From positions 62,001-126,000 of the forward strand of contig NZ_JAPDDS010000003.1 of assembly GCF_025950085.1 (NCBI RefSeq): DNA of 64,000 nucleotides, read 5' to 3'. A model generated the notes under the pieces. The model saw only the letters and a program-made list of their open reading frames with translations. It made no database searches and was not told where the DNA came from. This document shows positions 46,611-54,263 of the stretch, piece by piece (the stretch's first letter is position 1; every line of letters starts with the position of its first letter). A program made the translations under genes and the position numbers. The DNA is from Luteolibacter flavescens. GTDB taxonomy: Bacteria; Verrucomicrobiota; Verrucomicrobiia; Verrucomicrobiales; Akkermansiaceae.

Positions 46611-49600
46611 ATGAGCCAACTTCCGATCGAGCAGCTTCCAAAGCGCACACCGCGTCCTTGGCTGGAGGCGTTTTGGGCCGGTCAAGCGGAAGCGCTGAAA
46701 CTGATCCTCTCCGGCTTGCCGGTGGAAAGCGTGCTGGAGCACATCTCGCGCTGGATCGAGGAGATGTCGGACGAGGGAACCCTTTGCTCCATCTTCCTGG
46801 CGAATGATGAAGGCACCCACCTGACCTTGGCGGCGGCACTACGGCTTCCCGCAGATTTCATCAGCGCGGTACGGCGTTTGCCGGTCAAAGACGGGGTCGA
46901 TTCGCTGGGCAATTGGCTGGCCTGTGGCGAACCGGTGCTGAGTGAAGCCAACCCCACCACTACCTGGCCCGTCGCTCGCGAACAGGCGATCAGCCACGGG
47001 CTGAAGTCATGCTGGTCTGTGCCGGTCATCTCGGCGGATGGCGCATGGCTGGGGAGCATGGCTTATCATCGCCGGGATCATCTCATGCCTCAGGCGGAGG
47101 ATCTCGCCCAAGCGGAATCCGCCGCGAAGCTGGTGGGGCTGGTGATCGAACGCGGCCGCGCACCGGAGAAGAACGCTCATTCGAAATCCACCGCGCGCCC
47201 GCCCCGAGTCGGCGGCGGCGGGATGGACCTGACCGGGACCTTGGAAACGATCCCGGAGGCCTTTTTTACCCTGAACCGCGACTGGCGATTCACCTATGTG
47301 AACCAGGCGGCGGAATCGATGCTGAGGAAGAGCCGCGGAGAGATTCTCGACCGGGTGATCTGGGAAACCTTCCCGAGCGTCTGCGGCACCGCGGTGGAGC
47401 ACACCTACCGCAGTGTGATGGAGCACGGAAAGCCGGGCGTGCTGGATGAGTTCTTTCACCCTCCGCTCGGCCAATGGTTCGAGATCCGCGTGCTCCCTGC
47501 GGATGGCGGGCTGGCGGTCTATTTCCGCGACGTGACCGCCCAGCGGCAGCCGCGCGAACAACTGCGGCTGCTGGAAGCCTGCGTCGCCCGGATCAACGAT
47601 CTGGTCATCATCACGAATGCCGGCGAGGTGGATGAGCCGGGGCCGCGCATCCTCTTCGTCAACGACGCCTTCACCCGCATCACGGGCTACTCCCGCGAGG
47701 AGGCGATCGGGCGGTCGCCGCGGTTTCTCCAGGGGCCGAAAAGCCCGCGTTCCGAACTCGACCGCATCCGCCTGGCGCTGAAGCGCTGCGAACCGGTCCG
47801 TGCGGAATTGCTCAACTACAAGAAGAACGGTGACGAGCTCTGGCTGGAAGTAGACATCGTGCCCGTGGCCGGAGCCAATGGCCGCGCCGCCTATCAGGTG
47901 GGAGTGATGCGCGACGCCACCGAGCGAAAGCGGGCGGAGGAAGAAGCGCGAATCACAGAGGAACGCTACGTCCGCCAGCGCAATGCCCTGATCACGCTGA
48001 CCGACCTCTCGCCAGAGACAGCCGACAGCGACGAGAGCGCTTTCCAACGCATCACCGAGACCCATGCACGGGCGCTGGGCGTGTCGAGGGTCGGCATCTG
48101 GCGATACAATGCCGACCGCTCGGCCATTCACTGTGTCGATCTCTACGACCAGGATGCCCACCGACACATCAGCGGCATGCTGCTGACGGCAGAGACCTGC
48201 CCCGCCTACTTCCAGGCGATGGAGGAGGCGGACGTGATCGCCGCGGACCAGGCGCAGAGCGATCCGAGGACTTGTGACTTCGCGGAAAGCTATCTTGATC
48301 CGCTGGGCATCACCTCCGTGCTCGGCGCCCCGATCCATCTGGTGGGCGGCATTGACGGCATCCTCAGCAGCGAGCATGTGGGACCGCCCCGGACATGGAC
48401 CGGTGATGAAAAGACCTTCGCCGCCGCCGTCGCGAATATCGTGTCGCTGACCTTGGAGGGCTCCGAGCGTCAGCGGGCGGAAGACTCCGTGCGGGAGACG
48501 CGCAAGCGCTTCGAGGTGGTGGCGCGCGCGACCAATGATGCGGTGTGGGACTGGGATTTCTCGACCAACGAGATCTGGTGGAACGAGGGCTTCGAGACGA
48601 TGTTCGGCTTCAAGCGCAGCGAGGTCGAACCGTCCGCCGAGTCCTGGTATCACCGCATTCATCCCGCGGATGCACGGCGCGTGCTCCCGGGCCTCCGCCA
48701 CACCATCACCCAGGGCGGGGACCATTGGTCGGACGAGTATCGTTTCCAATGTGCCGACGGCAGCTATGCCTACGTGCTCGACCGGGGATTCGTGATCCGG
48801 GACGAGACCGGTCGCGCGATCCGCATGGTGGGCGGCATGACCGACCTGACCTCGCGGAAGCAGTGGGAGCAGGATCTGGCACGCCTCAACCGTGCCCTCC
48901 ACATGCTGAGCGCCAGCAATGAGGCGGTGACCCGCGCGACCGACGAGCAGCACCTGCTGGAGGAAATCTGCCGCCTCGCCGTGAATACCGGCGGCTACCG
49001 CATGGCGTGGGTCGGCTACGCGCGCGACGACGCGGACCGGACCATCGAGCCGATGGCGAGGGCCGGCGCGGAGGAGGGCTACCTCGATACCATCCGGCTC
49101 TCCTGGAGCGAGGACTGCCCCACCGGCAAGGGACCGGCCGGGCGCACCATCCGTACCGGCGAGACCGTGGTATGCCGCGACATCGCCATGGAGAGCGCTT
49201 TCTTCCACTGGCTGGATGAGGCGCACGCCCGCGGCTACCGCAGCGTCATCTGCCTGCCGCTGCGCGATGGGGACCGGGTCTTCGGCCTGCTCGCGCTCTA
49301 TTCCTCGGAGATCCAGCAGGCGGCGAGCGACGAGATCTCCCTGCTGCGCCAGTTGGCGGACGACCTCGCATTCGGCATCAGCACGCTGCGCTCCCGTCAG
49401 GAGATGCGCCGTACGGAAGACGTGGTTCTGAAGGTGGCCCAAGCGGTTTCCTCCGGCACGGGCACCGAGTTCTTCGACCTGCTGACGTCGAACATGATCG
49501 AGGCGCTGGGTGCCCATGGCGGTCACATCGCCCGGCTCAACCCGGAAGAACTATCCGTCACCACCCTGTCCCTGGTGATGGGTGGAAAGCGGGAGGAAAA

Positions 49601-51386
49601 CGTCACCTACAGCCTCCTCGGGACGCCGTGTGCGAATGTCCGCGAGGGCCGGATGTGTATCTTCGAGCGCGGGGTGCAAGAGACCTTTCCCGACGACCAT
49701 TTCCTGGTCGTCCACGGCATCCACGCCTATGCGGGCATCCCTCTGCTCCATCGCGATGGGTCGGTGGCGGGCATCATGGTGGTCATCTTTGACAAGCCGC
49801 TGGAAGAGACAGGGCTGGTGCAATCGACGCTACAGATCTTCGCCGCGCGGGCCTCGGCGGAACTCGACCGGCAGATGGCCGACGCCCGCATCCGCGATCA
49901 GGCATCGCTGCTCGACCGGGCACGCGATGCCATCCTGGTGCGAAACCTCGACCACCGCATCAGCTACTGGAACAAGAGCGCCGAGCGGCTCTACGGCTGG
50001 ACCGCGGAAGAAGTCATCGGGAGCTCGGTGGAAACGCTGCTCTACCGGGACACGAAGGATTTCCGCGCTGCCTGCCAAACCGTCATCGAGACTGGTGAAT
50101 GGCTGGGCGAACTCCAGCACTTCGCCCGGGATGGTCGCCAACTCACCGTGGAAGGCCGCTGGACGCTGCTCTACGACGAGAACGGTAAACCGCGGAATAT
50201 CCTCACGATCAACACGGACATCACCGAGCACCGCCAGCTCCAGCAGCAGTTCCTCCGCGCGCAGCGGCTGGAAAGCATCGGCACGCTCGCCGGCGGCATC
50301 GCCCATGACCTGAACAACGTGCTCGCGCCGATCAGCATGTCGATCGAGCTGCTGAATTCCGAGGTGACCTCGGACCGCGGGCGGGAGCTGCTCGCCACAC
50401 TGGCGGGAAGCGCACGGCGCGGGGCGGACATGGTGCGGCAGGTGCTGTCCTTTGCCCGCGGGATGGAGGGCCGACGACTGGAAGTCCACGCGCGCCGCCT
50501 CGTGAGCGATGTGGAGAACATCGTCCGCGATACCTTTCCGAAGGACATCACGCTCGACATCCGCGTGCCGCGCAATGTGTGGACACTTCAGGGCGACCCC
50601 ACCCAGCTCCACCAGGTGCTGATCAATCTCTGCGTGAACGCCCGCGACGCGATGCCGCGGGGCGGGTCCATCTGCATCAGTGCGGAGAATATGGATCTCG
50701 ACCCCAAGGGGGCGGCCTCCGAACCGGGGGTGAAGCCCGGCCCCTACGTCCGGATTAGCGTGGAAGACTCGGGTTCCGGTATCCCGACACAGCATCTGGA
50801 GAAGATCTTCGAGCCGTTTTTCACCACCAAGGAATTCGGCAAGGGCACCGGACTCGGCCTGCCCACGTCGCTGGCCATCATCAAGAGCCATGGTGGCTTC
50901 ATCCGCGCCGCCAGCCCTCCCGGGCGCGGGGCTCGCTTCGACGTCTTCCTGCCCGGACTGCCCGGCACCGGGGAATCCGCGCTCGACCAGAGCGACAGCC
51001 CCCTGCCCCGTGGCCACGGCGAGACCATCCTGATCGCGGACGATGAGGAATTCGTCCGCAGCATCACCGGCCGCACCCTGGAGTCCTTCGGCTATCAGGT
51101 CCTACTCGCGGCCGGTGGCAGTGAGGCGGTGGATTTGTATCGCGAGCACGGCGCGGAGATCTCCGCCGTCATCACGGACATGATGATGCCCGGCATGGAC
51201 GGCGCATCGGTCATCCGGGCGCTTGCAGCCCTCGATCCGGAGGTCAAAATCATCGCCTCCAGCGGCGTGACCGCCCATGACGCCCGCGCCCGCGAAGCCA
51301 GCGATTGTGTCCGACATTTTCTTCCCAAGCCCTGCAGCGCTGAAACTTTACTAAAAGTGCTAAAACGTGTCGTCTCCGACGCGTAG
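46611..51386 (+). CDS. hybrid sensor histidine kinase with multiple GAF and PAS domains
   Basis: The 1591-residue soluble protein has GAF (about 25-190), PAS (205-310), PAS-PAC (313-445), GAF (451-620), PAS (628-755), GAF (755-925), GAF (935-1090) and PAS (1093-1213) domains. HisKA follows with His1232 in GGIAHDLNNVLAP, then a HATPase (N box LINLCVNARDAM, G boxes DSGSGIP and GTGLGL) and a C-terminal receiver with Asp1523 in VITDMMMPGMDG. No membrane segment is present, so the signal is cytosolic, such as redox, a small ligand or light. A sigma-54 activator gene follows 96 bp later, which makes it the likely partner. The gap before the gene holds no obvious promoter. Confidence 0.92.
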   Translation: MSQLPIEQLPKRTPRPWLEAFWAGQAEALKLILSGLPVESVLEHISRWIEEMSDEGTLCSIFLANDEGTHLTLAAALRLPADFISAVRRLPVKDGVDSLGNWLACGEPVLSEANPTTTWPVAREQAISHGLKSCWSVPVISADGAWLGSMAYHRRDHLMPQAEDLAQAESAAKLVGLVIERGRAPEKNAHSKSTARPPRVGGGGMDLTGTLETIPEAFFTLNRDWRFTYVNQAAESMLRKSRGEILDRVIWETFPSVCGTAVEHTYRSVMEHGKPGVLDEFFHPPLGQWFEIRVLPADGGLAVYFRDVTAQRQPREQLRLLEACVARINDLVIITNAGEVDEPGPRILFVNDAFTRITGYSREEAIGRSPRFLQGPKSPRSELDRIRLALKRCEPVRAELLNYKKNGDELWLEVDIVPVAGANGRAAYQVGVMRDATERKRAEEEARITEERYVRQRNALITLTDLSPETADSDESAFQRITETHARALGVSRVGIWRYNADRSAIHCVDLYDQDAHRHISGMLLTAETCPAYFQAMEEADVIAADQAQSDPRTCDFAESYLDPLGITSVLGAPIHLVGGIDGILSSEHVGPPRTWTGDEKTFAAAVANIVSLTLEGSERQRAEDSVRETRKRFEVVARATNDAVWDWDFSTNEIWWNEGFETMFGFKRSEVEPSAESWYHRIHPADARRVLPGLRHTITQGGDHWSDEYRFQCADGSYAYVLDRGFVIRDETGRAIRMVGGMTDLTSRKQWEQDLARLNRALHMLSASNEAVTRATDEQHLLEEICRLAVNTGGYRMAWVGYARDDADRTIEPMARAGAEEGYLDTIRLSWSEDCPTGKGPAGRTIRTGETVVCRDIAMESAFFHWLDEAHARGYRSVICLPLRDGDRVFGLLALYSSEIQQAASDEISLLRQLADDLAFGISTLRSRQEMRRTEDVVLKVAQAVSSGTGTEFFDLLTSNMIEALGAHGGHIARLNPEELSVTTLSLVMGGKREENVTYSLLGTPCANVREGRMCIFERGVQETFPDDHFLVVHGIHAYAGIPLLHRDGSVAGIMVVIFDKPLEETGLVQSTLQIFAARASAELDRQMADARIRDQASLLDRARDAILVRNLDHRISYWNKSAERLYGWTAEEVIGSSVETLLYRDTKDFRAACQTVIETGEWLGELQHFARDGRQLTVEGRWTLLYDENGKPRNILTINTDITEHRQLQQQFLRAQRLESIGTLAGGIAHDLNNVLAPISMSIELLNSEVTSDRGRELLATLAGSARRGADMVRQVLSFARGMEGRRLEVHARRLVSDVENIVRDTFPKDITLDIRVPRNVWTLQGDPTQLHQVLINLCVNARDAMPRGGSICISAENMDLDPKGAASEPGVKPGPYVRISVEDSGSGIPTQHLEKIFEPFFTTKEFGKGTGLGLPTSLAIIKSHGGFIRAASPPGRGARFDVFLPGLPGTGESALDQSDSPLPRGHGETILIADDEEFVRSITGRTLESFGYQVLLAAGGSEAVDLYREHGAEISAVITDMMMPGMDGASVIRALAALDPEVKIIASSGVTAHDARAREASDCVRHFLPKPCSAETLLKVLKRVVSDA

Positions 51387-51482: not shown

Positions 51483-52841
51483 ATGCCGCCCAGCTTAGAA
51501 GAGCAACCCAATCTATTGATTGTCGATGACGACGAGACGATCCAGCGCCTGCTGGTGATCGCCGCGAAGGATCACGGCTGGAGGCCAAGGACGGCCGGCA
51601 GCGGCATGGCAGCGCTTGACGGGCTGGACGACTCCATCGAGGCGGTGGTGCTCGATCACGGACTCCCGGACATCGACGGACTCCAGACCTTGGAACGGCT
51701 GCGCCAGGCGAAATCGAACTTGCCGGTGATCATGCTCACCGGGCTCAACGATGCCGAAACGGCAGTAAGGGCATTGCGAGCCGGAGCGGCCGATTACCTC
51801 ACGAAACCCTTCGAGCTGAAGCGACTTTTCGACCTGCTTCGGCAGATCCGCCTCGACCGGTCCGAGCCCGCTCCGACCTCGGCGGGAAGCACCCTCAAGC
51901 CCGCGGCAGCCGATGGCCTACGCAGCGCGAATCAGCGCGTGCGCGAGCTGCTCCGCCGGCTGGAGAAGGCCGCATCGCTGGACACCACGATCCTGCTGAC
52001 CGGCGAGAGCGGCACCGGCAAGACCTACTTCGCCAAAGAGATCCACCGCCTGAGCCCGCGCGCCGCGGAGGAATTCATCCCGGTGAGCTGCCCCGCCCTG
52101 CCGCGGGAACTGCTGGAGTCGGAGCTTTTCGGCCATGAGAAGGGCTCCTTCACCGGTGCCACTGCCAGCCGTGCAGGCCGCTTCGAGCAGGCATCGAAGG
52201 GCACCATCTTCCTCGACGAGATCGGCGACCTGCCCGCGGAACTCCAGCCGAAGCTGCTGAATGTGCTGCAGGACCGGGAATTCTTCCGCGTGGGTGGAAA
52301 CAAGATCCTGAGGACCAATGCCCGGGTGATCGCCGCCACGAACGTGGACCTCCACGCCAAGGTCGCCGATGGCAGCTTCCGGGAGGACCTCTATTACCGG
52401 CTCAATATCATCGAGCTCCCCATCCCGCCGCTGCGGGAGCGCAAGGACGACCTTCCCGGCCTGACTGCGGCCATCCTGGGCCGGATCGCGGCGCGGCGCG
52501 GCAATGACGGCTGGACGCTGACCTCCGGGGCCAGCGCTGCCCTCGCCGCCTTCGACTGGCCGGGTAATATCCGCCAGCTCGAGAACGTGCTCGAGCGCGC
52601 CACCGCCTTCACGGATCGCGATGAGCTCGGCGAGCAGGACCTCGTCCCGCTGCTGGAAAGCCGTCGCGAAGGCCCTGCCAGCGGCGGCGGTGCCAAGGTG
52701 CGCACCCTCCACGAACTGGAGCGCGAAACCTTCCTCGAAGCCTACCGCCGGACCGGCGGCAACAAGGCGAAGACCGCCCGGGAGCTGGGCGTTTCCGAGC
52801 GCACCGTTTACAACCTGCTGGAGCGCCACGGACTGAAGTGA
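51483..52841 (+). CDS. sigma-54-dependent response regulator (NtrC family)
   Basis: The 452-residue protein has a receiver (Asp58 in VVLDHGLPDIDG, Lys108 in TKPF), a sigma-54 AAA domain with Walker A GESGTGKT (174-181), the sigma-54 contact loop GSFTGA (221-226; the usual form is GAFTGA) and Walker B IFLDEIGDL, and a Fis-type HTH at the C-terminus (NKAKTARELGVSERTVYNLL). It should activate RNA polymerase-sigma-54 at promoters of the TGGCAC-N5-TTGC type when phosphorylated, probably by the hybrid kinase encoded just upstream. Two such promoters lie in the adjacent non-coding region. Confidence 0.92.
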   Translation: MPPSLEEQPNLLIVDDDETIQRLLVIAAKDHGWRPRTAGSGMAALDGLDDSIEAVVLDHGLPDIDGLQTLERLRQAKSNLPVIMLTGLNDAETAVRALRAGAADYLTKPFELKRLFDLLRQIRLDRSEPAPTSAGSTLKPAAADGLRSANQRVRELLRRLEKAASLDTTILLTGESGTGKTYFAKEIHRLSPRAAEEFIPVSCPALPRELLESELFGHEKGSFTGATASRAGRFEQASKGTIFLDEIGDLPAELQPKLLNVLQDREFFRVGGNKILRTNARVIAATNVDLHAKVADGSFREDLYYRLNIIELPIPPLRERKDDLPGLTAAILGRIAARRGNDGWTLTSGASAALAAFDWPGNIRQLENVLERATAFTDRDELGEQDLVPLLESRREGPASGGGAKVRTLHELERETFLEAYRRTGGNKAKTARELGVSERTVYNLLERHGLK

Positions 52842-52870
52842 TCCATGGACGGGCAGCGGATCTCCGCTGC

Positions 52871-52909
52871 ATGATTTTCAGCGGAAGTTGAAAATCATAC
52901 ATTCTTTTT
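52871..52909 (+). terminator. terminator of the NtrC-type gene
   Basis: A perfect 10-bp stem (52871-52880 with 52889-52898) is followed by ACATTCTTTTT. A further hairpin, GCAGCGGA/TCCGCTGC (52853-52860 with 52863-52870), directly precedes it. Confidence 0.6.
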
Positions 52910-52923
52910 GATCAACCCGCCGC

Positions 52924-52942
52924 GTTGCGAATTCGCGGCAAC
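52924..52942. promoter_or_regulatory. possible activator-binding dyad upstream of sRNA 1
   Basis: GTTGC-N9-GCAAC (52924-52942) lies 48-66 bp before the first sigma-54 promoter. A related TTGC-N8-GCAA dyad precedes the second promoter. It is a candidate upstream activating sequence. Confidence 0.35.
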
Positions 52943-52989
52943 TTGCCCATTTCATTGAACATGAGGCAATGATGTAATGTCAGTATGAT

Positions 52990-53005
52990 TGGCATGGCGG
53001 ATGCC
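52990..53005 (+). promoter_or_regulatory. sigma-54 promoter of sRNA 1
   Basis: TGGCATGGCGGATGCC keeps the invariant GG-N10-GC spacing of -24/-12 promoters. The -12 C at 53004 puts the start near 53016, directly before the hairpin at 53017. Confidence 0.7.
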
Positions 53006-53015
53006 ATATGACTCT

Positions 53016-53190
53016 TGTTCTCTGGGGGGAGAACTGGAGTCGGAAGGCTCCGCTATGCAACATACCAAACCGTCGGGTGGAAGGTCTCTCCGGAGGCCCC
53101 CCCGGCGGTGAGGGGTAGAGCCCCGCAGCCATCGCAACCTGCGACTGAAGACGCCTGTAATTCCGTGCGTTCTGACGCTTCGTTATTTTC
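53016..53190 (+). ncRNA. candidate sigma-54-dependent small RNA 1
   Basis: The predicted RNA opens with the hairpin GTTCTCTGGGGGGAGAAC (53017-53034, loop TGGGGG). One base later comes a GGAGT/GCTCC hairpin (53036-53040 with 53047-53051), then single-stranded GCTATGCAA (53052-53060). Further 3' are a structured region with ACCGTCGGG/CCCGGCGGT stems, an inner GGTCTC/GAGGCC hairpin and a GGGG-CCCC hairpin. The 3' end is a guess: a short GCGT/ACGC stem followed by TTCGTTATTTT ends near 53190. Short frames across it show no coding character. The same 5' layout recurs in RNA 2. Confidence 0.6.
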
Positions 53191-53262
53191 CAATTATCAC
53201 GGCAACAAGCATCCTGATATACATGGATTACTTATGAAATGATTTCTTCCGGTTCTGAAATT

Positions 53263-53280
53263 ATTGCACCGTGAAGCAAT
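53263..53280. promoter_or_regulatory. possible activator-binding dyad upstream of sRNA 2
   Basis: ATTGC-N8-GCAAT lies 77-94 bp before the second sigma-54 promoter. Confidence 0.3.
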
Positions 53281-53356
53281 CTGATCCAGCTTCCCGAATC
53301 CACCTGAAAATTTCAATCAACTCAACAAAAGCGAGTTACAACACCGCCGATTCATT

Positions 53357-53372
53357 TGGCACGCTGCCTGCC
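53357..53372 (+). promoter_or_regulatory. sigma-54 promoter of sRNA 2
   Basis: TGGCACGCTGCCTGCC has the full TGGCACG -24 box and the GC of the -12 box at the right spacing. The start is predicted near 53383, just before the hairpin at 53384. Confidence 0.75.
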
Positions 53373-53382
53373 AATACGTAGG

Positions 53383-53490
53383 CGTTCTCTGGGGGGAGAA
53401 CTTGGGCTTCCCAGCCCGCTATCCAATCCAATCTCCCGCTGGCTGCGCGATCTCTCATGAGGTCCCTCCAGCGGGGGATTGGATTGATTG
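53383..53490 (+). ncRNA. candidate sigma-54-dependent small RNA 2
   Basis: The 5' hairpin (53384-53401) is identical to that of RNA 1. It is followed after two bases by GGGCT/AGCCC (53404-53408 with 53413-53417) and then GCTATCCAA (53418-53426). A 19-bp stem with one wobble pair (53424-53442 with 53468-53486) closes the predicted RNA; it has no T-tract, so the transcript could run on to the rlpA terminator near 53600. Neither RNA is recognised as a known family. Confidence 0.6.
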
Positions 53491-53565
53491 CTTCAAGGGG
53501 GGATCGCCTCTCCACCACCTATCTCTTTCCACCGCGACCTCCGGCTGCCAGATCTGCCAACCGGC

Positions 53566-53604
53566 AAAAAAAAGGCCCCCCTCCGGATGTCCGGAAGAGG
53601 GCGG
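53566..53604 (-). terminator. terminator of rlpA
   Basis: On the minus strand a GC-rich stem built around TCCGGA is followed by eight T's (complement of 53566-53573), about 36 bp after the rlpA stop. Confidence 0.8.
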
Positions 53605-53639
53605 ATTGATAAAGGGCGAGGAAGGGCGTGTCGGAACGG

Positions 53640-54065
53640 TCAGTTGTCCGACACCTTCAGCACCTCGACTTTCACCGGCACGATGCCTCGTGCGCGAAAG
53701 CCAAGCCGCTGGGCGACTCCTTCTGTGACGTCGATCACGCGACCCTTGGTATAGGGCCCACGGTCGTTGATACGCACCACCTCGGACTTGCCGTTGGAAA
53801 GATTGGTCACGCGGACCTTCGTTCCCATGGGCAGGGTCTTGTGAGCGGCGGTCGCAGCATGGTCGCTGAGACGCTCTCCGCTCGCGGTGCGGGTGCCGCC
53901 ATTGCAGCGGACACCATACCAGGAAGCCTTGCCGTGCTGGACGGACGAGACTTTCCACTCCGTCGCACCAGAGGGCTGGTTCGACGCGGTAGCCTGCGTG
54001 GTGCAGGACGGTAGCATTAGGGCTCCGGCGATGGCCAGGGCCACGGACTTTAGGTTCCGGGTCAT
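53640..54065 (-). CDS. rlpA: RlpA-family septal ring lytic transglycosylase-like lipoprotein
   Basis: The start at 54065 gives 141 residues with a lipoprotein signal (lipobox LPSC). The double-psi beta-barrel of RlpA is complete: GKASWYG, TASGE, AAHKTLPMGTKVRVTN and VRINDRGPY, where the last Asp is catalytic in active members. There is no SPOR domain. RlpA proteins cleave peptidoglycan glycan strands lacking stem peptides. The gene is read toward the two candidate small RNAs, so the region between it and the sigma-54 activator is convergent. Confidence 0.85.
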   Translation of the reverse strand: MTRNLKSVALAIAGALMLPSCTTQATASNQPSGATEWKVSSVQHGKASWYGVRCNGGTRTASGERLSDHAATAAHKTLPMGTKVRVTNLSNGKSEVVRINDRGPYTKGRVIDVTEGVAQRLGFRARGIVPVKVEVLKVSDN

Positions 54066-54263
54066 GGTTTCGTGTCGGTGTTTACCTCGCGCTGAACGCG
54101 AGGCCGCGGGGTTTAGGGACTGGAAAACCGTGCCGCAAGCCCAATCTGACACTTACCGAAATGCCACAATTCAATAAAAATCAATGATTTATTTAAATTT
54201 ACTTAAGATCGCTTAACTTTTATTCTCCACTTCGGCCCCGCTTTTGCTACGCGTCAGGGTGAA

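Follow-up and report, generated by a model that had tools for sequence, protein, structure and literature searches.

Two paralogous, lineage-specific structured RNAs of ~100 nt are probably encoded in the gap behind a sigma-54 activator gene of Luteolibacter flavescens, where they would form an output arm of the adjacent kinase/activator gene pair. The gap lies within a 64,000-nt stretch of the genome, termed here the window. Comparison of genomes supports the RNA family itself, the geometry of its promoters, the sites upstream of them, the covariation of its stems, its linkage to the kinase and activator genes and its co-occurrence with the activator.

Two predicted RNA elements in a convergent gap

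The genome to which the window belongs (G000; 5.9 Mb in 71 contigs) has an rpoN gene. In the window the activator gene (+ strand) and an rlpA-like gene (− strand) converge, and the gap between them is 798 bp. The locus is laid out as follows, the upstream sites being given without strand:

46611–51386, +, sensor histidine kinase gene (ORF and Pfam: PAS, GAF, HisKA/HATPase and a C-terminal receiver domain)
51483–52841, +, NtrC-type response regulator/sigma-54 activator gene (Pfam: receiver, Sigma54_activat and Fis-type HTH), presumed to encode the activator of the RNAs
52867–52881, upstream site 1 of RNA1, CTGCATGATTTTCAG (two mismatches to CTGCAANNNTTGCAG)
52888–52902, second, weak upstream site of RNA1, TTGAAAATCATACAT (21 bp downstream of site 1; ranked outside the top three of this copy)
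52990–53005, +, sigma-54 −24/−12 promoter of RNA1, TGGCATGGCGGATGCC (from sequence)
53016–53117, +, RNA1, predicted transcript spanning hairpins 1–3, with its predicted start near +1
53017–53034, +, hairpin 1 of RNA1 (7-bp stem, GGGG loop)
53036–53051, +, hairpin 2 of RNA1, GGAGTC-GGAA-GGCTCC (fold and covariation)
53063–53117, +, hairpin 3 of RNA1, long (fold and covariation; a second script sets slightly wider limits)
53234–53248, degenerate upstream site 1 of RNA2 (position expected from relatives; not among the three best)
53255–53269, upstream site 2 of RNA2, CTGAAATTATTGCAC (two mismatches)
53357–53372, +, sigma-54 −24/−12 promoter of RNA2, TGGCACGCTGCCTGCC (from sequence)
53383–53486, +, RNA2, predicted small RNA spanning hairpins 1–3, with its predicted start near +1
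53384–53401, +, hairpin 1 of RNA2, the same as that of RNA1 (18-mer scan and fold)
53403–53418, +, hairpin 2 of RNA2, TGGGCT-TCCC-AGCCCG (covariation)
53424–53486, +, hairpin 3 of RNA2 (27 pairs, about −44 kcal/mol)
53640–54152, −, rlpA-like gene (named by eye)

An initial annotation had described here two GG-N10-GC promoters, each followed at equal spacing by the same 18-nt hairpin (GTTCTCTGGGGGGAGAAC), by a second hairpin that is changed yet paired (GGAGTC-GGAA-GGCTCC against GGGCT-TCCC-AGCCC) and by a GCTAT-N-CAA tail (GCTATGCAA in copy 1, GCTATCCAA in copy 2). All of these elements exist at the positions it gave, with 12 bases between the −12 C and hairpin 1 in both copies; the description was incomplete in that hairpin 3, the upstream sites and a third copy in the genome had been overlooked. 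Allowing up to three mismatches, the 18-mer occurs at only two places in the window (in 100 shuffles the mean is 0.01 and none reaches two), and both window copies fold better than all of 200 shuffles (z −3.8 and −6.0). The third copy is unlinked to these (G000:C9:125463-125545, − strand). It has TTTTTT after hairpin 3 and lies downstream of a gene whose product ends in what we take to be a PEP-CTERM-like motif.

Distribution and structure of the RNA family

Elsewhere in the genus the exact hairpin recurs as a pair (spacing ~0.9–1.05 kb) in five genomes and singly, near the same genes, in a sixth; in seven genomes of the window's genus the RNA has these genes as neighbours. A promoterless exact match (G007:C10:287608) was rejected as chance, as were 13 of the 15 near-matches listed, which likewise had no promoter; the other two (G000:C9 and G007:C5) are true copies. 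Two covariance models were then used. Model R1, comprising promoter, hairpin 1 and hairpin 2 from 14 copies, was run on 97 relatives and 260 genomes of the family; model R2, from 25 copies, was applied to samples of 386 genomes from the order and 387 from the phylum. R1 gave only three matches at E ≤ 1 in the window's genome. R2 found the RNA in 13 of the 386 order genomes (2 of 50 genera), and six of the 387 genomes in the phylum sample matched, one of which (G599) was a bare promoter box and was rejected. The genomes are mostly drafts. In the order and phylum searches the filters were stricter and only a small number of candidates was scored in each genome, so that weak members could have escaped.

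The initial annotation had taken the two copies for members of a real RNA family, and covariance-model searches of Verrucomicrobiota genomes and of Rfam bear this out with covarying homologues in relatives and no Rfam family. The 25 copies analysed come from 13 genomes of two genera of one Verrucomicrobiota family (16 copies in seven genomes of the window's genus and nine in six genomes of the other); to these two genera the RNA seems, from sequence, to be confined. Left out of the 25 were a second copy in G012 (C149:2863-2943; hairpin 1 intact, −12 GC changed to GT), a decayed copy in G008 and a diverged copy in G181. At the gathering score, Rfam has no family in the window or in nine loci with other copies; at E ≤ 10 the region 52840–53660 gave six sub-threshold matches, none to a known sigma-54 sRNA. 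Weak sub-threshold matches of hairpin 3 of copy 2 (53416–53493) to animal microRNA precursors probably reflect the long hairpin only. A search of viral contigs with the promoter-plus-hairpin-1 pattern gave no match.

Weak model matches in G055, G047 and G290 were rejected, being sigma-54 boxes before dnaK (named by eye) without hairpin 1, as was one in G028 (C12:56309), a box before an ammonium-transporter-like gene (by eye). The position of dnaK directly behind a sigma-54 box in these three genomes, which belong to other genera of the family, suggests sigma-54 control of dnaK there.

A −24/−12 box stands at the distance from the structured RNA that is right for a sigma-54-dependent regulatory RNA. 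In a search without promoter requirement, 14 of 15 exact hairpin matches had a GG-N10-GC box at the same distance; the 25 copies were selected with a GG-N10-GC or GG-N10-GG filter, so that the box in 25 of 25 is partly by construction, though all 25 read GC where GG was allowed. The spacing from the −12 C to hairpin 1 is 12 bases in 20 copies, with 11 bases in three others and 13 in the last two, which places the start of hairpin 1 near the predicted +1. The sigma-54 dependence proposed in the initial annotation is strengthened by these boxes, and likewise by the upstream sites, the rpoN gene and the co-occurrence with the activator.

Covariation was scored in two alignments. In A4 the rows were cut at the end of a best hairpin 2 picked by script, such that its counts lean towards structure, and one row (G007c_1) is misaligned; A5, made of uncut 46-nt stretches, serves as its control and agrees. 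Over hairpins 1 and 2 of A4, 89.7% of cells are paired (80.6% when shuffled), 33 cells are changed on both sides (11.2 when shuffled, at most 11 when slid) and the covariation score is 0.295, a value reached by none of 500 shuffles and compared with at most 0.123 for slid alignments. The corresponding A5 values are 92.7% (84.5% shuffled), 25 cells (7.7 shuffled, reached by none of 500; at most 8 slid) and 0.268 (at most 0.108 slid). Further pair types in A4 show no excess over shuffles, 392 of 500 reaching the observed value. Because related sequences are not independent, p-values here and below overstate. The earlier observation of second stems that change while staying paired thus extends across the family: hairpin 2 covaries above both shuffled and slid controls. 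Summed over the 25 copies, the most stable hairpin within 38 nt downstream of hairpin 1 has −187.6 kcal/mol, against a mean of −62.8 and a lowest value of −89.3 in 200 shuffled sets; taken alone, hairpin 2 reaches p ≤ 0.05 in 15 of the copies, and eight have a UUCG loop in this region.

Hairpin 1 is nearly invariant. Its closing pair is U·G (15 copies), C-G (8) or U-A (2) around a constant GGGG; the outermost pair is absent in five copies and a few have one inner mismatch. Hairpin 3 was found by script in all 25 copies, with 14–30 pairs, and among the first 14 copies has 10 cells with two-sided changes against 2.8, with at most 7 when slid. Near its end 13 of 25 copies have a run of at least four T or at least five T in eight, and hairpin 3 looks like a terminator in many copies; both window copies lack such a T-rich stretch. 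When 14 copies were folded, 12 beat all 200 shuffles, while G010_1 was reached by three and G012_1 by 73. Transcription of the + strand fits the structure, since the G·U pairs of hairpins 1 and 2 would be A·C on the other strand. A leader peptide was dropped as a candidate on the grounds that the long open frame through the RNA begins upstream of the predicted +1.

Upstream sites and the kinase/activator genes

A 15-bp palindrome, CTGCAANNNTTGCAG (CTGCAA-N3-TTGCAG), is common to the regions upstream of the promoters. Summed over the 25 copies, the best sites have 53 mismatches and the lowest of 200 shuffled sets has 100, in a test that is partly circular because the motif was read from the sequences being scored. 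A site with up to three mismatches lies at −120 to −161 from hairpin 1 in 24 of 25 copies, mostly near −151 or −130; the exception, an unlinked copy in G010 (G010c_1), has no recognisable site. Site pairs with up to four mismatches are most commonly spaced by 21 bp (11 pairs), and the position of the weak site 2 of RNA1 holds a second site in several relatives.

Independent support comes from nine further genomes with an activator ortholog, which were not used to derive the motif. In six of these, a sigma-54 box near the activator gene has two sites (0–3 mismatches, 19–21 bp apart), and the other sigma-54 boxes in these genomes are without such pairs. A scan of 13 genomes for paired sites with up to three mismatches found four RNA promoters and four other places; a reversed control pattern also gave four places, so the four non-RNA places fit chance.

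Homologs of the kinase gene adjoin the RNAs in most relatives, and for 21 of the 25 copies the distance to the kinase or activator gene, to one side or the other, is no more than about 4.5 kb. Between the two G003 copies and the kinase gene is another large ORF. The G195 copy is linked to the kinase gene only, as the contig ends there; in one genome the kinase gene is preceded by three copies at 309-bp spacing. An activator ortholog (E ≤ 1e-140) is present in 22 of 260 family genomes, which include all 13 RNA genomes. The RNA (E ≤ 1e-3) is thus found in 13 of 22 genomes with the ortholog and in 0 of 238 without it (Fisher p about 2e-16, ignoring kinship). Three more genomes matched the RNA model at E 0.001–0.01: two of the matches are dnaK promoters, and the third genome, G008, which is without the activator ortholog, has only the decayed copy, with a broken hairpin 1, beside rlpA (G008:C9:301436-301518, − strand).

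Nine of the 22 activator genomes gave no match in the family scan, from which it follows that the activator can work without the RNA. One of them, G181, has the diverged copy, which by eye keeps the GGGG loop. Five (G180, G214, G215, G223 and G224) have the sites and a sigma-54 box but lack hairpin 1; open reading frames follow in some of them. In the remaining three (G179, G211 and G225) no site/box pair was seen near the activator gene; the only box in G179 and G225 is inside the coding region of the activator itself, and the activator of G211 is near a contig end. The activator probably controls the RNA along with other targets. In G215 (about 4108, − strand) and G180 (about 7046, − strand) the sites and box precede a similar 162-aa ORF with hydrophobic stretches, and in G223 (about 9787, + strand) an ORF that by eye resembles a LuxR-type response regulator.

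Proposed circuit, other readings and known systems

In the circuit that we propose, a signal would act through the kinase to phosphorylate the activator, which would bind the CTGCAA-N3-TTGCAG sites about 150 and 130 bp upstream and open sigma-54 polymerase at the −24/−12 box. The RNA would start with the 5′-terminal GGGG-loop hairpin, followed by the freely covarying hairpin and the long third hairpin. Here we infer that the elements are transcribed, which activator binds, that the RNAs act in trans and what the loop does. As the GGGG is constant beside a freely changing hairpin 2, the loop can be read as the contact point: it is likely the part that does the work, either by base-pairing to C-rich mRNA or as a protein-binding site, and hairpins 2 and 3 likely provide spacing, stability and termination. 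A kissing interaction between the GGGG loop and a C-run in hairpin 3 was dropped, the C-run being absent in several copies including window copy 2, as was CsrA-type binding, for which the GGA sits in a stem.

A gene termed here X bears on the alternatives. It follows copy 1, between the copies, in five of the seven same-genus genomes with the RNA (G003, G007, G009, G010 and G015), with its likely ATG 113–154 nt beyond the first base of hairpin 1, the choice of start codon in G003 being doubtful; in G007 an unlinked copy, too, has an X gene behind it. The X protein has a variable, proline-rich N-terminal part and, by eye, three hydrophobic stretches in its C-terminal part, and evolves fast, with 24–36% identity to the first of the six. 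None of the six X proteins reaches a Pfam cut-off (two matches at E 0.07 and 0.23), and X has no match in the seven genomes of the other genus that were searched, in the window's genome or in G012. Two X paralogs that lack the RNA, hairpin 1 included (G015:C60 and G003:C1), are immediately preceded by a sigma-54 box. X can therefore do without the RNA, and it is probably a member of the same regulon, a small one. By eye, CTGCA...TGCAG palindromes are present upstream of these two paralogs.

This arrangement could mean that the elements are 5′ leaders capping or regulating an mRNA, as copy 1 probably is for X in the five relatives, with window copy 1 as a relic. Of the six copies that precede X, only G003_1 has the T-rich stretch near the end of hairpin 3, as this reading would have it. 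For the elements as a whole we nevertheless consider it quite improbable: X is unmatched in the other genus, in the window's genome and in G012, its two paralogs have the box and no hairpin 1, many other copies end in terminator-like hairpins, and window copy 1 keeps its promoter, one good site and hairpins 1–3 even though X is gone. That retention favours a function of its own, although the loss of X may be recent, and window copy 1 in particular may be an mRNA leader or relic instead of a stand-alone sRNA. The start regions of X contain CCCC in 7 of 8 cases against 20% of 95 background ORFs, a post hoc comparison among related genes with a background of which many are probably not genes. One could accordingly imagine one module with two uses, a free sRNA (copy 2 and others) and a fixed leader (copy 1–X), the GGGG pairing with the C-rich, Shine-Dalgarno-poor start of X both in cis and in trans and the former leader in the window, with X gone, having become an sRNA; we regard this as speculative and on the whole unlikely.

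Somewhat less doubtful, as a tentative possibility, is that the RNA sequesters an RNA-binding protein through its exposed GGGG loop, in the manner of CrcZ, and does not pair with mRNA. A constant loop beside a hairpin free to change would suit this, as would the dosage provided by multiple copies, which fits titration (three in tandem in one genome), and the lack of an Hfq match in the window's genome (PF17209; the control matched in 5 of 14 genomes, and with the assembly 97.5% complete a miss is possible). The RNA has however a single GGGG loop, no repeated binding motif was seen, and no candidate protein emerged, Hfq having been sought. Chance similarity, or a DNA-level repeat without RNA function, is scarcely credible; the ordinary folding energy of G012_1 is in its favour, but it is contradicted by covariation above controls, promoter geometry, the same gene neighbours in seven genomes of the genus, the upstream-site scores and the co-occurrence with the activator. 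Our preferred reading thus remains that of paralogous RNAs driven by the neighbouring kinase and activator.

Circuits of this layout are known. GlmY/GlmZ are sigma-54 dependent, and Rfam holds models of Qrr, CrcZ and GlmY/GlmZ; membership of the present RNAs in any of these three is unsupported, since there is no Rfam match. Model R2 run over 79 other loci found nothing at E below 0.85, and the match at that value was a bare promoter.

The closest parallel is Pxr, for which the passages cited here describe genes for a kinase (PxrK) and a sigma-54 response regulator (PxrR), followed after a 262-nt gap by an RNA of about 108 nt with three predicted stem-loops and a sigma-54 promoter with enhancer (PMC5568312, PMC5684412, PMC10217877, PMC11928866). 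According to the same passages the loop of the first stem-loop is essential, stem-loops 1 and 2 are conserved and the third is most variable; pxr has tandem paralogs in Cystobacter, the genomes concerned have no Hfq and the RNA is reported from myxobacteria only; and a neighbouring gene, pxrA, is a likely target, with predicted pairing mainly in the third stem-loop (PMC5568312, PMC5684412, PMC10217877, PMC11928866). The Verrucomicrobiota locus likewise has kinase and sigma-54 regulator genes adjoining the RNA gene, predicted sigma-54 promoters with upstream enhancer-type sites, predicted ~100-nt RNAs with three stem-loops, tandem paralogs and, in the window's genome, no Hfq match. Unlike Pxr, it combines a constant hairpin 1 with a freely variable hairpin 2, has a GGGG first loop and often two upstream sites, and in some species the RNA is followed immediately by a gene, with no clear terminator between them; the contact proposed here is loop 1 and not the third stem-loop.

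In the Pseudomonadaceae, CbrA-CbrB-CrcZ/CrcY/CrcX is described in the cited text as a kinase and an NtrC-type regulator closely followed by a sigma-N-dependent regulatory RNA that forms a unit of its own, the paralogous RNAs having family-specific synteny and CrcZ binding Hfq/Crc (PMC8871633). Its kinase/regulator/RNA layout, paralogy and family-specific synteny are shared by the present RNAs, which differ from CrcZ in having no Rfam match and, in the window's genome, no Hfq match. The VanO/LuxO-Qrr systems of vibrios comprise, in the account cited, paralogous sRNAs that each have a sigma-54 promoter and activator box, one sRNA being located next to the activator gene, with a predicted 3′ terminator and action with Hfq on the mRNA of a quorum-sensing regulator (PMC3352281). 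Several predicted paralogous RNAs with sigma-54 promoters and activator sites, some beside an activator gene and many with a terminator-like third hairpin, are found here too, whereas an Rfam match and, in the absence of an Hfq match in the window's genome, the Hfq-dependent action of Qrr have no counterpart. GlrK-GlrR-GlmY/GlmZ of enterobacteria is described in its cited source as a two-component system driving sRNAs (PMC7602753), and differs in its Rfam membership, its partners and its organism. The best reading is of a new RNA within a known kind of circuit, with the layout of Pxr, CrcZ and Qrr, the comparison with Pxr being one of layout and predicted structure.

Circuits of kinase, activator, sigma-54 and sRNA have been described previously in vibrios, pseudomonads, enterobacteria and myxobacteria; among the matches listed in the open-licence PMC literature no paper deals with a sigma-54 sRNA from Verrucomicrobiota. 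Should its sequence prove unrelated to the RNAs of those groups, the Verrucomicrobiota family would suggest that this circuit layout arose more than once, and it offers a testable RNA regulator in a phylum without one among those matches. With its restriction to two genera, a decayed copy in a genome without the activator, a tandem triplication and an apparent dual use as sRNA and leader, the family makes a case for studying the birth, duplication and loss of an RNA.
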